A DNA stretch of 37,220 nt from Spirochaetia bacterium (lineage in GTDB: Bacteria; Spirochaetota; Spirochaetia; PWKH01). The DNA is taken from positions 1-37,220 of the forward strand of contig SKJE01000071.1 in the NCBI GenBank assembly GCA_007116075.1. The letters are read 5' to 3'. Made by a program: the position numbers and the translations under genes. Below are positions 5,042 through 27,638 of the stretch, piece after piece (position 1 is the first letter of the stretch; each line of letters opens with the position of its first letter). Under the pieces are notes generated by a model. It saw only the letters and a list, made by a program, of their open reading frames with translations. It was not told where the DNA came from and searched no databases.

Positions 5042-6816
5042 TCCGCAGGTTTTTTTCCTTCTTCTCCACTCTGGAATCGCGCACATATTACATCTTTACG
5101 CTCCTCATTCTCATGACTATTCTCTCAACCCAGCTGATATCATATAACTACACCCAGCGCTCCCTCATTGATGTAACCAATACCCAGAAGGGATATACCA
5201 TGGAGCGCCTTGCCTACCAGATTGATACCTATATGACAACCATGGAGCAGATTGCCCATACGGTCATCGACTCCGATGAAATCCAGCAGTACTTTACCCG
5301 TTCCGGGCAGAACGACTCTGTCGATGGAGACGCGGTGTCCCAATACCTTGCCTCGTTCCTGCGTGCCCGGGAGGACATCACCACCATAGCATTGTTCGGG
5401 TTCGACGGAACGCGGATCACCAGTTCATCGGATCAGCAGGTCAGTCCCTTTTCCCATGTGGAACAGCAGCAGTGGTATCAGAATGCGGTGCATAACCCGG
5501 GCAGGACAATCATTTCCTCTGCCCATGTACAGAATCTTTTTTTCGGTATCTATCCCTGGGTGGTCTCCATGAGTATGACCTTCCATGACCAGATTACCGA
5601 CGAACCCCTTGGTGTACTTCTGGTTGACCTCAATTTTAACCGAATCAGGGAACTGAGCCAGCCGGTCATGCAGGATCCGCCGGAGTATATCTTCATCCTG
5701 GACAGCCATGGCGATTATGTATTTCATCCCCAGCAGCAGCTGGTCTACAGCGGAATCACCACCGAACCTACTGAATCGCTTATGGAGATGACCGACCGTT
5801 CCGATCCCCTGGAGGTCTCGGGTAAGAGCTATATCACCCGGCAGGCTCAGTCTGCGGACTGGAGGATTGTCTGTGTTACCGAGCTCTACGGGAGCATGGG
5901 CCAATGGCGCTATATCCAGGCAGCCTACGCAACCATTGGTCTGATAGCCTTCATTGTGGTGGGGCTGGTGGCAAACCTGCTTTCCCGCTCAATTACCCAT
6001 CCGATAAAGGAGCTCTGTGCGGTCATGAAATCTGTAGACCGGCACAATTTTAATATCACTGCAGAGATTGACTCCACTGTTGAGATCCAGCAGCTGGCCG
6101 ATGAATTCAATATCATGGTCAGGAAAATCCGGGGCCTGATTGACCAGATCCACCATGAGCAGGAACTGAAACGCAAGAGCGAACTGAAGGCGCTGCAGGC
6201 GCAGATCAACCCGCACTTTCTCTACAATACCCTGGATTCAATTATCTGGATGAGCGAAATGGATCGTAACCGGGAGGTGGTGCTCATGACCTCAGCATTG
6301 GCGCGGCTGTTCCGTATCAGCATCAGCAAGGGCCGGGAGATCATCACCGTCCGAGAAGAGCTGCTTCATGTGGAAAGCTACCTCACCATCCAGAAAATGC
6401 GCTACCGGGATCATTTCTCCTATTCCATTGAAGTTGACGAATCCCTCCATGCCTATCCCTGCCTTAAGATCATCCTCCAGCCCCTGGTGGAAAATGCTAT
6501 CTATCACGGATTAAAGACCGTTGAGTATAAGGGTTTGATCAAAATTTCAGGGTTCATCCAGGATGACCGGATAATCCTGCAGGTGATCGACAACGGTGTA
6601 GGCATGGACCCCCTGCTGCTGGAGCGATTGATTTCAGACAGTTCCGCCAGGAAACAGCTGCGTTCATCCTCAGGAGTCGGCCTGCATAATGTCCACGAGC
6701 GGCTTCGCCTCTACTTCGGTGAGCCCTACGGCCTTACCTGCAGCTGCACCCCTGGAGAACGTACGGTCATATCGGTGATCATGCCTGCTACACCTCCAAT
6801 GGAGGAGGACCTATGA
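5038..6816 (+). CDS. Sensor histidine kinase, YesM/LytS-like (extracellular domain, HAMP, His_kinase, HATPase)
   Basis: GTG start overlaps the previous stop (GTGA). Two TM segments flank an extracellular domain; LQAQINPHFLYNTLDSIIWM is the His_kinase (PF06580) H-box; ATPase motifs PLVENAIYHG and DNGVGM. Confidence 0.95.
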   Translation: MIRRFFSFFSTLESRTYYIFTLLILMTILSTQLISYNYTQRSLIDVTNTQKGYTMERLAYQIDTYMTTMEQIAHTVIDSDEIQQYFTRSGQNDSVDGDAVSQYLASFLRAREDITTIALFGFDGTRITSSSDQQVSPFSHVEQQQWYQNAVHNPGRTIISSAHVQNLFFGIYPWVVSMSMTFHDQITDEPLGVLLVDLNFNRIRELSQPVMQDPPEYIFILDSHGDYVFHPQQQLVYSGITTEPTESLMEMTDRSDPLEVSGKSYITRQAQSADWRIVCVTELYGSMGQWRYIQAAYATIGLIAFIVVGLVANLLSRSITHPIKELCAVMKSVDRHNFNITAEIDSTVEIQQLADEFNIMVRKIRGLIDQIHHEQELKRKSELKALQAQINPHFLYNTLDSIIWMSEMDRNREVVLMTSALARLFRISISKGREIITVREELLHVESYLTIQKMRYRDHFSYSIEVDESLHAYPCLKIILQPLVENAIYHGLKTVEYKGLIKISGFIQDDRIILQVIDNGVGMDPLLLERLISDSSARKQLRSSSGVGLHNVHERLRLYFGEPYGLTCSCTPGERTVISVIMPATPPMEEDL

Positions 6817-7811
6817 GACGGATGAACTGGCTGTATATCAGCGTCATTATTGCCGCGCTGCTCTATCTGCTGCTGCTCAACCTTGACACCAATGGAACCC
6901 CCGACCAGATGAGAAACCGCCATGCGGTGGTGATCCTCAAGGAACATGGGGAGCTCGCGGCTGATTTCTGGCGGGTAGTCCAGGAGGGCATGCAGGAAGC
7001 TGCCCGGGAGAGCGGCCTGCAGCTCAGCATCACCGGTCCTCCCAGGGAGCATATGGTGGATCTGCAGATTCGGCTGGTGCTTGAACAGATCCAGCTGGAG
7101 CCGGACATCATAATACTCGCTGCCACCGATTTTGACCGGCTCAGGGACCCTGTAGCTTGGGCTCATGCCCAAAACATACCGATAATTACCGTTGATTCCG
7201 CAGTGAATTCACGTATACCGGCATCCTTTGTGGCCACCGACAACGTTGAAGCGGGCATGAAGGCAGGGGAGCTGATGAAACAGCTGGTGCCGGAACAGGA
7301 TACCCCTTTGCTTATACTCAGCCAGAGCCGGGAGAGTTCCTCGGCCATCGAACGGGAAAAGGGAGTTCGCATGGCCCTCGAGCACTACACGTCACTGTCG
7401 GTTGCCTACGCAGACGGACAGTACCAGGCAGCCTTCGATCTTGCCACAGAAGCCCTTATCCGGGGGGAGATCAGGGCAATCATATCACTCAATGAAGTAA
7501 CTACCCTTGGAGCCGGAGATGCCCTGGCGCACCTGGGCATGGGAGAGACAATATCCATGGTTGGTTTCGACAACGCCCCAAGAGTACTTGCACACCTCCA
7601 GTCAGGCATCCTTGAGGGAACCGTAGTCCAGCGCCCCTTCACGATGGGTTACCAGGCGGTTAAGCTTGCTGAGGCGGTGCTCAGCGGCCAGGAAGTAGAC
7701 TCCTTTGTGAATACCGGATCAGTGGTGATCACCCGGGAGAATATGTTCGAACAGGAGTACCAGGAACTGCTCTTTCCATTCGATGCACCTTTGCAGGAGC
7801 TCTCACCATGA
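6813..7811 (+). CDS. Membrane-anchored periplasmic sugar-binding protein (peripla_BP_4-like), copy 1
   Basis: ATGA overlap with the kinase; N-terminal single hydrophobic anchor WLYISVIIAALLYLLLLNL; type-I PBP features DFWRVVQEGMQEAARE, GPPREHMVDLQ, FVATDNVEAG, VGFDNAP. Confidence 0.9.
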   Translation: MRRMNWLYISVIIAALLYLLLLNLDTNGTPDQMRNRHAVVILKEHGELAADFWRVVQEGMQEAARESGLQLSITGPPREHMVDLQIRLVLEQIQLEPDIIILAATDFDRLRDPVAWAHAQNIPIITVDSAVNSRIPASFVATDNVEAGMKAGELMKQLVPEQDTPLLILSQSRESSSAIEREKGVRMALEHYTSLSVAYADGQYQAAFDLATEALIRGEIRAIISLNEVTTLGAGDALAHLGMGETISMVGFDNAPRVLAHLQSGILEGTVVQRPFTMGYQAVKLAEAVLSGQEVDSFVNTGSVVITRENMFEQEYQELLFPFDAPLQELSP

Positions 7812-8806
7812 AACGAAGCAGCTGGTTTTTTATAAGCATCATCACCGCAGGCCTTCTATACATTCTGCTGCTGAATGTCGGACTCTACCGAAATCCGGAC
7901 CACCGCCAGGAACACCATGTCATGGTTGTCCTGAAGGCAACGGTACAACCTATGGATTTCTGGGATGTAGTAAAAACCGGTATGGAAGAGGCTGCCCGGG
8001 AGCATACCCTGCAGCTCTCATTCATTGGTCCGCCCCATGAGCAAATGGTTGACCTGCAGGTTGAACTCATGCTGGAGGGTATTGAACAAGAGCCGGATCT
8101 CATCATTCTTGCGGCAGGGGATGTGGATCTGCTCGTAGATCCCATTGCCCGAGCTCATGAGAAAGGCATAGCAGTGATCATTATCGACTCGGGAACAGCA
8201 TCCTCCCTTCCAATCAGTTTTGTTGCCACCGACAATATTGAGGCAGGTATCAGAGCAGGAACATATATGGGACAAGTACTGGAACAAAGGATTCCCGACC
8301 GGCCCGGCAGAATCATGATCATGAGCCACAGCAGAGGAATAACTACGGCCATTGAGCGTGAATCGGGGGTTCGCAGGGCACTTGAAAAGCATGAAATCAT
8401 CGGCACGTGGTACTGTGATATAGATCATCAAGTGGCCTATGATTTGACCCGGGAGGTGCTTTCCATGTATCACATTGACGGCATCATCGGCCTCAATGAG
8501 GTCTCAACCCTCGGAGTAGCCGATGCAGTGTCAGACCTTGGTCTGGGAGGGGTGATTCCTATCGTCGGCTTTGATCATGCGGCCCAGGAAATGGCCTATC
8601 TGGAATCTGGCGTACTGGAAGCTACAGTTGTGCAGCGCCCTTATAACATGGGCTATATTTCTGTTACTCAGGCAGCCCGGCATCTGCAGGGTAAACCGGT
8701 AAAACCGGTGGTTAACACCGGCTCTAAGCTCATCACCCGGGAGAATATGTTCGAACCGAAGTACCAGGAACTGCTCTTCCCCTTCGAAAAGCTGAACGGA
8801 TTATAG
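7808..8806 (+). CDS. Membrane-anchored periplasmic sugar-binding protein, copy 2 (tandem paralogue)
   Basis: ATGA overlap with copy 1; same length (332 aa) and same architecture; WFFISIITAGLLYILLLNVGL anchor; FVATDNIEAG, VGFDHAAQ, NTGSKLITRENMFEPKYQELLFPF. Confidence 0.9.
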   Translation: MKRSSWFFISIITAGLLYILLLNVGLYRNPDHRQEHHVMVVLKATVQPMDFWDVVKTGMEEAAREHTLQLSFIGPPHEQMVDLQVELMLEGIEQEPDLIILAAGDVDLLVDPIARAHEKGIAVIIIDSGTASSLPISFVATDNIEAGIRAGTYMGQVLEQRIPDRPGRIMIMSHSRGITTAIERESGVRRALEKHEIIGTWYCDIDHQVAYDLTREVLSMYHIDGIIGLNEVSTLGVADAVSDLGLGGVIPIVGFDHAAQEMAYLESGVLEATVVQRPYNMGYISVTQAARHLQGKPVKPVVNTGSKLITRENMFEPKYQELLFPFEKLNGL

Positions 8807-26290: not shown

Positions 26291-26312
26291 AGGGATACTA
26301 TGAGGGGGTGTT

Positions 26313-27638
26313 ATGGCATTTTCTGATTATCTGCATGAACAGCACATTCTGTTTTTCCAGGACGTATCAAAGAACGAGGCAATTCACCAGCTTGCCCAGA
26401 CGGTCAGTGAGCGGGTCCCGAATAGTGATACGGATACCATAATAAAGGCTGTTTGGGACCGTGAATCCCAGCTTTCCACCCGGATAGCTCCAGGGATAGC
26501 CATTCCCCACGCCACCTTTCCCCATCTCAACACTACCTACATATCAGTCGGGGTCAGTCATAAGGGAATCCTTTACGATGCAAAGGAGGACGGGATAGTT
26601 CACCTGATCATTATGCTTGTGGGAGATGAGGCGAACCACCTCAAGGCACTCAGTGAAATGGCTATCCGGCTCCAGATTCCCGGCATCTATGAGCGAATCA
26701 TTGAATCAGAAAGCTCCCGTGAAATCTACAGCCTGCTTACCAGTCCCTCCCCTGACCTCCTAACCTCAATGGAATCGATTCATACCTCCCGCAAGATCTG
26801 CCGCCAGGCGGTGGAGCTTGCCCGGTCTCTCGAAGCTACCACAGTCATCATCCATGGGAATGACACTCTCATTTCCGGTGTGCGCTGCAGCCACCAGGAT
26901 ATCAGAATGCTCTATGTCGCTTCTGACACAAATGAACCCGTAGAAGAGAGCGTCAAGAATCCGAAGGAAAATACCCAGGTTATCACCATGCCCTTCAGGG
27001 GACTGAACCGCTCAAGCCAGGTGGAGATAAGTCTGCTTCTTGCCCTGTCAAAGGGGCTGCTTAAGCGTGAAGAGCGGGTGGTGAGCGTATTCGGACTCAA
27101 CTCACTGAAACGCCTTGACACTATCGTGTATACAGATGTACAGAGGGAGTTCAAGCGTTTTTTCTCCACCTCCATCGATAATGCGTCCAATGACATCCAG
27201 CAGCAGGTGTTCATTCGGGTGATGCAGCTTGCCTCCGAGATTGCCCATGAGGGACGGGAGGGAAAAGCGGTGGGAACCCTGTTTGTGATCGGGGAATACG
27301 AAGAAGTATCCCAACACTGCCAGCAGATGATTGCAAATCCCTTCAAGGGCTACGAAGATCATGAACGTAATATTCTTGACCCAGGGCTCTCTGAGACTAT
27401 CAAGGAGTTTGCCCAGATAGATGGTGCGATTATCATAAAGGGAAACGGGGTCATCGCCTCGGCAGGCACCTATCTTCGGGTTAAGCATCCGATTAAAAAT
27501 TTTCCCTCAGGACTTGGAGCCCGCCATGCAGCTGCTGCAGGTATAACCGCAGCAACCGAAGCGGTGGCTATTGCGATATCTGAATCAACCCGGAAACTGA
27601 GTCTCTTCAGTTCCGGGGAACGTATCATGGAAGTCTAG
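26313..27638 (+). CDS. Tripartite PTS EIIA (Fru/Ntr) - pyruvate-kinase-C-like - DisA_N diadenylate cyclase domain fusion
   Basis: EIIA: STRIAPGIAIPHATFPH with His66 and HLKALSEMAIRL; PK_C-like: SRKICRQAVELARSLEATTVIIHG...LLLALSKGLLKREERVVSVFG; DAC: QIDGAIIIKGNGVIASAGTYLRV...GLGARHAAAAGITAATEAVAIAISESTRKLSLFSSGE. RBS GAGGGGG. Confidence 0.85.
   Translation: MAFSDYLHEQHILFFQDVSKNEAIHQLAQTVSERVPNSDTDTIIKAVWDRESQLSTRIAPGIAIPHATFPHLNTTYISVGVSHKGILYDAKEDGIVHLIIMLVGDEANHLKALSEMAIRLQIPGIYERIIESESSREIYSLLTSPSPDLLTSMESIHTSRKICRQAVELARSLEATTVIIHGNDTLISGVRCSHQDIRMLYVASDTNEPVEESVKNPKENTQVITMPFRGLNRSSQVEISLLLALSKGLLKREERVVSVFGLNSLKRLDTIVYTDVQREFKRFFSTSIDNASNDIQQQVFIRVMQLASEIAHEGREGKAVGTLFVIGEYEEVSQHCQQMIANPFKGYEDHERNILDPGLSETIKEFAQIDGAIIIKGNGVIASAGTYLRVKHPIKNFPSGLGARHAAAAGITAATEAVAIAISESTRKLSLFSSGERIMEV

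Follow-up and report, generated by a model that had tools for sequence, protein, structure and literature searches.

Among the closest known relatives of the protein reported here are the DacZ/CdaZ-type diadenylate cyclases of archaea and some bacteria, exemplified by Haloferax volcanii DacZ and M. jannaschii CdaZ, in which a domain with the fold of the pyruvate kinase C-terminal domain (PK_C) is followed by the catalytic DAC domain (PMC6741144). A further class, DacD, was named in Corrigan and Gruendling (2013), and its members, as given in PMC6741144, come from Lacunisphaera, Puniceicoccaceae, Coraliomargarita, and Opitutae. EIIA-Ntr (PtsN), which belongs to a regulatory PTS, acts as a free protein by binding its targets; in its unphosphorylated form it binds KdpD and activates kdpFABC, a K+ uptake system (PMC9239096). 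More generally, c-di-AMP acts in the control of K+ and osmotic balance (PMC7900238).

Elements of these systems are combined in a single 441-aa protein encoded in the window, that is, the whole analysed stretch of 37,220 nucleotides, a single contig from the 2.2 Mb draft genome of a Spirochaetia bacterium. The protein shares with DacZ and CdaZ a PK_C-fold domain immediately before a DAC domain of the same branch (PMC6741144), but differs from them in carrying an EIIA domain. With the EIIA-Ntr system it shares the EIIA fold, the phospho-His motif, a setting with few or no sugar permeases, and a link to K+ (PMC9239096); unlike PtsN, however, its EIIA is fused to a second-messenger enzyme. EIIA_2 domains fused to Na+/H+ antiporters and P-type ATPases, or encoded next to them, in the same genomes are comparable as input modules on effectors of cation homeostasis, except that the effector there is a transporter and here a c-di-AMP synthase. 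Judging from sequence and modelled structure, the protein is probably a soluble DacZ/CdaZ-type cyclase producing c-di-AMP from ATP, with the N-terminal EIIA predicted to serve as a built-in PTS phosphorylation switch.

Domain architecture and cyclase class

The open reading frame (26313-27638, + strand; supported by ORF, Pfam, AlphaFold, and Foldseek analyses) runs from an ATG start to a TAG stop and is preceded by an RBS-like AGGGGG (26303-26308, +, read from the sequence). Pfam placed three domains along the protein in the N- to C-terminal order PTS_EIIA_2, DacZ_P, and DAC. The AlphaFold model of the whole protein, built on a 36-row alignment, had a mean pLDDT of 86 and a pTM of 0.57, indicating that the single domains are well predicted, whereas their mutual arrangement is not.

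The PTS_EIIA_2 domain, of the EIIA-Ntr/Fru type, occupies residues 6-143 (26328-26741, +; Pfam, Foldseek) and matched PF00359 with an E-value of 2.5e-26 (92.8 bits; cut-off, 27), and a Foldseek search with the whole model recovered the EIIA-Ntr structures 3urr and 1a6j (E about 1e-9). The predicted phosphorylation site, His66, lies in the motif GIAIPHA (codon 26508-26510, +; sequence and alignment), so that the protein combines a significant type 2 EIIA match with a phospho-accepting His, as the first-pass annotation of this DNA had proposed. The expected second active-site residue, His109 in ANHLKALSE (codon 26637-26639, +; sequence and alignment), which we take to be equivalent to His120 of E. 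coli PtsN, varies among relatives and is replaced in several EI-positive clades, which counts against a phospho-switch.

The middle of the protein was assigned to DacZ_P (residues 160-284; 26790-27164, +; Pfam and structure model) by a PF21755 match barely above the cut-off (E 2.5e-6; 27.6 bits vs. 27.4), and the PF02887 (PK_C) profile gave no match in the window protein. When residues 147-292 were modelled alone (pLDDT 85), all 50 matches listed from the PDB were pyruvate kinases, the best with an E-value of 7.9e-7 and a TM-score of 0.68 of the query; additionally, a relative without EIIA (L007) matched PK_C directly (1.2e-4). The pyruvate-kinase-C-like domain suggested at first pass was thus recovered as a fold and as PF21755, but not as the PF02887 profile, and its position directly before the DAC domain upholds the suggested kinship to the CdaZ/DacZ layout.

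The DAC (DisA_N) catalytic domain (residues 311-436; 27243-27620, +; Pfam, Foldseek) matched PF02457 with an E-value of 4.6e-22 (78.3 bits; cut-off, 27), and the whole model matched the CdaA structure 6hvm (E about 2e-7). Both catalytic motifs expected of a diadenylate cyclase, DGA at residues 370-372 (27420-27428, +) and GARH at residues 402-405 (27516-27527, +), were located by sequence and alignment, in agreement with the initial reading of this region. Where CdaA and DisA have Arg as the last residue of the RHx motif, the window protein has Ala, so a catalytically weak or inactive enzyme, with its RHR-type motif reading RHA, has to be considered; this is very improbable, however, because the third position varies across the family and is also without Arg in an archaeal DacZ (GTRHHAA), D370, G371, R404, and H405 are invariant across the 36-row alignment, the protein is the sole DAC of several Verrucomicrobiota, and its DAC domain has a low dN/dS. 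The equivalog model for haloarchaeal cyclases (NF041371, Diadnylcyc_Halo) scored 116 bits (cut-off, 430), and the CdaA model TIGR00159 scored 36 bits (cut-off, 188.8). By its sequence, the window protein is related to, but is not, haloarchaeal DacZ, an example of which from Haladaptatus (L144) contains PF19294 in place of DacZ_P.

Distribution of the layout and its gene neighbourhood

The EIIA-DacZ_P-DAC layout occurs in Spirochaetota, Fibrobacterota, Kiritimatiellota, and Verrucomicrobiota, mostly in one clade. The full layout was present in only four of 248 genomes of the window's own phylum, and a scan of the genome collection added about 30 carriers from Spirochaetota, Verrucomicrobiota, Fibrobacterota, and one Kiritimatiellota MAG. 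A full-length copy was present in 95 of the 116 genomes from the verrucomicrobial order that includes Ereboglobus, making this the usual type of diadenylate cyclase there; it was the sole DAC in nearly all verrucomicrobial carriers checked, except for G261, which has a second, interrupted match. Because the same three domains recur in dozens of separate genomes, the fusion is neither a chance event nor an assembly artefact.

In a tree of DacZ_P-DAC sequences, the 32 fused sequences formed one supported clade, within which two rows had no EIIA, one cut by a contig end and the other on a long branch. Four spirochaete sequences (L005, L006, L044, and L049) were separate from the main clade in one tree but joined it, with a support of 77, after removal of long branches; the fusion need not, therefore, have had a strictly single origin. 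One spirochaete copy (L017, 7950-9326) has an in-frame TAG inside the DAC domain, reflecting either a pseudogene or a sequencing error, and a close relative (L020) has an intact copy.

Since the DacD members are taxa of just the group that is rich in EIIA-DacZ_P-DAC proteins, we conclude that the architecture is very probably the DacD class; the listed members come from Opitutae and relatives, where the layout is frequent and nearly always the sole DAC. In this respect the window's genome differs, as it encodes two cyclases, the EIIA-DAC protein and a CdaA (L122) on another contig beside a YbbR-like gene. The rarity initially suggested for the three-domain layout is therefore contradicted by its frequency in one order and its very probable identity with DacD. 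The layout is also less novel for belonging to a class already named, and an earlier description of it is likely. In the literature searched, no paper joined c-di-AMP with an EIIA domain, and what appears to be undescribed there is the proposed gating by the PTS, together with the observations that support it.

A HAD-type 5'-nucleotidase family gene (PF05761; 27657-29048, +) starts 18 bp 3' of the cyclase gene and likely shares its transcript; its substrate may be a nucleotide tied to c-di-AMP breakdown. This gene order was seen only in the two closest relatives (L012 and L013), which alone share as neighbours the HAD nucleotidase and an NSS transporter. Comparison of gene neighbourhoods yielded no operon partner conserved across families and no kept neighbour tying the cyclase gene to the PTS, and no c-di-AMP (ydaO) riboswitch was found in the 27 carriers searched. 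In a few Puniceicoccales, an HPr kinase (HprK) gene adjoins or lies near the EIIA-DAC gene (L184, 5595-7976; also L162, L167, L168, L169, and L039). Elsewhere in the window (6813-8806), two adjacent, similar genes look from their translations like periplasmic sugar-binding proteins, with a response regulator and a histidine kinase 5' of the pair and an apparent sugar ABC transporter 3' of it.

The EIIA domain with and without Enzyme I

Every one of the 25 distinct carrier genomes of at least 1.8 Mb encoded the N-domain of Enzyme I (EI; PF05524), and none of the 10 of at most 1.3 Mb did. HPr, found in 23 of the 25 larger genomes, follows the same pattern of genome size save for three exceptions, in draft genomes. 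Of the 24 EI-positive carriers whose motif could be read, 23 have the active His of EIIA, the exception being L022 with a Tyr; of the 10 EI-negative carriers, four, all of one clade, have lost it. However, the His is retained in five EI-negative carriers (L031, L042, L045, L046, and L051) and in L160 of G330, a genome without EI and HPr, all of which count against gating, as does the His loss in EI-positive L022. A strict rule equating retention of the His with the presence of EI was accordingly rejected, as it is broken by L022 and by the His-bearing EI-negative genomes, including G330.

A separate group of five reduced genomes (L162, L163, and L167-L169) shows a His-to-Tyr replacement, and among further reduced genomes EIIA was degenerate in two copies and missing from six. 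Searches by tblastn over all 878 kb of G283, a single contig belonging to the Tyr group, detected no EI N-domain and no HPr, and the same was found for G330, in which the His is kept; the positive controls worked in both genomes. In all, EI and HPr were examined in 12 reduced genomes. Separately, G283 retains an HPr kinase gene though HPr and EI are gone and its EIIA His is Tyr, and this kinase may have another substrate.

Among compared pairs that are not independent of one another, and in which the His losses represent few events on the tree, the constraint on EIIA differed with the presence of EI. A Fisher test of His loss against EI was set aside because its counts were rough and the losses are linked through the tree. 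The ratio of EIIA to DAC differences was 1.1-3.5 in EI-positive clades vs. 2.75-16 in EI-negative symbionts. In the EI-positive clades, the conservation of EIIA mostly equalled or exceeded that of DacZ_P; in the EI-negative symbionts, it was lower in every case. The dN/dS of EIIA was 0.02-0.12 with EI, 0.08-0.19 where EI is absent and the His kept, and 0.21-0.39 where both are lost, whereas that of DAC was 0.01-0.06 across all EI-negative pairs. Loss of the PTS is confounded with genome reduction, which brings many losses, and the contrast with DAC within the same gene serves as a partial control. The simplest reading of these sequence comparisons is that, where a PTS exists, EIIA is selected as a PTS phospho-domain, and that the cyclase is required with or without a PTS; the decay of EIIA but not of DAC after loss of the relay suggests that the relay really controls the enzyme.

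Two other readings of an active cyclase bear on the same data. The EIIA could be a docking or oligomerisation module that works independently of phosphorylation, or DAC or c-di-AMP could instead affect a role of EIIA as a PTS phosphate sink; the EIIA fold and His kept by several EI-negative symbionts, the poorly conserved second His, and the action of EIIA-Ntr through protein binding (PMC9239096) all agree with this reading, but it is unlikely given that EIIA is under stronger constraint with EI, is selectively degraded or deleted in reduced genomes, and has a His66 that is nearly invariant among EI-positive genomes. Alternatively, DacZ_P might be the main (metabolite) sensor, with EIIA fine-tuning the enzyme or riding along as the passenger of an old fusion. 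This we regard as less likely still: DacZ_P is indeed common to the relatives, those without EIIA included, and the C-terminal domain of pyruvate kinase binds effectors (PMC6741144), yet in EI-positive clades DacZ_P mostly does not exceed EIIA in conservation, and a passenger EIIA would not have held on to the active His in 23 of the 24 genomes. Gating by PTS phosphorylation, as first proposed for this protein, is thus partly supported by retention of the His together with EI, by co-occurrence with EI and HPr, and by the decay of EIIA after PTS loss.

PTS components, cation transport, and the proposed switch

The window's genome encodes both EI, split over contigs C183 and C178, and HPr, whose gene adjoins HprK on contig C129, along with a second HPr-like protein. 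A search of this genome turned up no EIIC of the Glc/Fru/Mtl family, and EIIC-GAT was represented by two contig-edge pieces of one gene. Most carriers are without the two PTS permease families tested, and for this reason the relay looks regulatory. A broader claim that carriers are without any PTS permease was dropped, given the EIIC-GAT pieces in the window's genome and the mannose type lying outside the test.

Seven EIIA_2 domains are encoded in the window's genome (G000), that of the cyclase included, and five of the six other EIIA genes (L126, 3636-5755; L128, 2809-4883; L125; L127; and L129) adjoin genes for Na_H_Exchanger or Mrp antiporter subunits, which points to ion homeostasis and suggests that the PTS regulates cation transport. 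Among relatives, four EIIA_2 domains are fused to Na_H_Exchanger (L136-L139), and in a Fibrobacter MAG a P-type cation ATPase carries one as an N-terminal fusion (L143, 575-3838); these loci were chosen for their long open frames and are examples rather than a census. At one of the antiporter loci, a 134-aa protein matching no Pfam family (L129, 799-1200, -) is encoded between the EIIA gene and MnhB of an Mrp operon and appears PII-like by eye. Given the few permeases of the tested families and the antiporter-adjacent EIIA genes, carbon or nitrogen status, the input first envisaged, is less well supported than cation and osmotic homeostasis.

In the phosphorylation switch that we favour, phosphate would pass from PEP through EI to HPr, and HPr~P would phosphorylate His66. 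The middle domain, with its pyruvate-kinase-C-like fold, would then relay the phosphorylation state of EIIA to the DAC domains. Because DAC domains react only as pairs, and do so face to face (PMC7288161), an N-terminal module can gate their pairing; a change in the state of EIIA would alter this pairing and hence c-di-AMP output. The direction of control is the weakest step of the proposal, and our guess is that the unphosphorylated form would be active and that phosphorylation would restrain the cyclase, because the DAC domain stays strongly conserved in symbionts with a non-phosphorylatable EIIA and the unphosphorylated form is thus probably competent. The neighbours and fusions linking EIIA to antiporters, the EIIA-Ntr/KdpD precedent, and the part that c-di-AMP plays in controlling K+ and osmotic balance together suggest that the switch would tie PEP or energy status to K+/Na+ and osmotic homeostasis.

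We give about even odds to the wider proposal that a PEP-driven relay directly sets c-di-AMP and that the cyclase, together with its antiporter-associated EIIA sisters, belongs to one ion-homeostasis PTS network in bacteria with few or no PTS sugar permeases. The control of diadenylate cyclases is a main open question of c-di-AMP biology, and a covalently attached, phosphorylatable EIIA would be a defined input joining PEP metabolism to K+ and osmotic control within one polypeptide. As a protein of this layout is seemingly the only source of c-di-AMP in much of one verrucomicrobial order, the question becomes tractable there with one enzyme, EI, and HPr.
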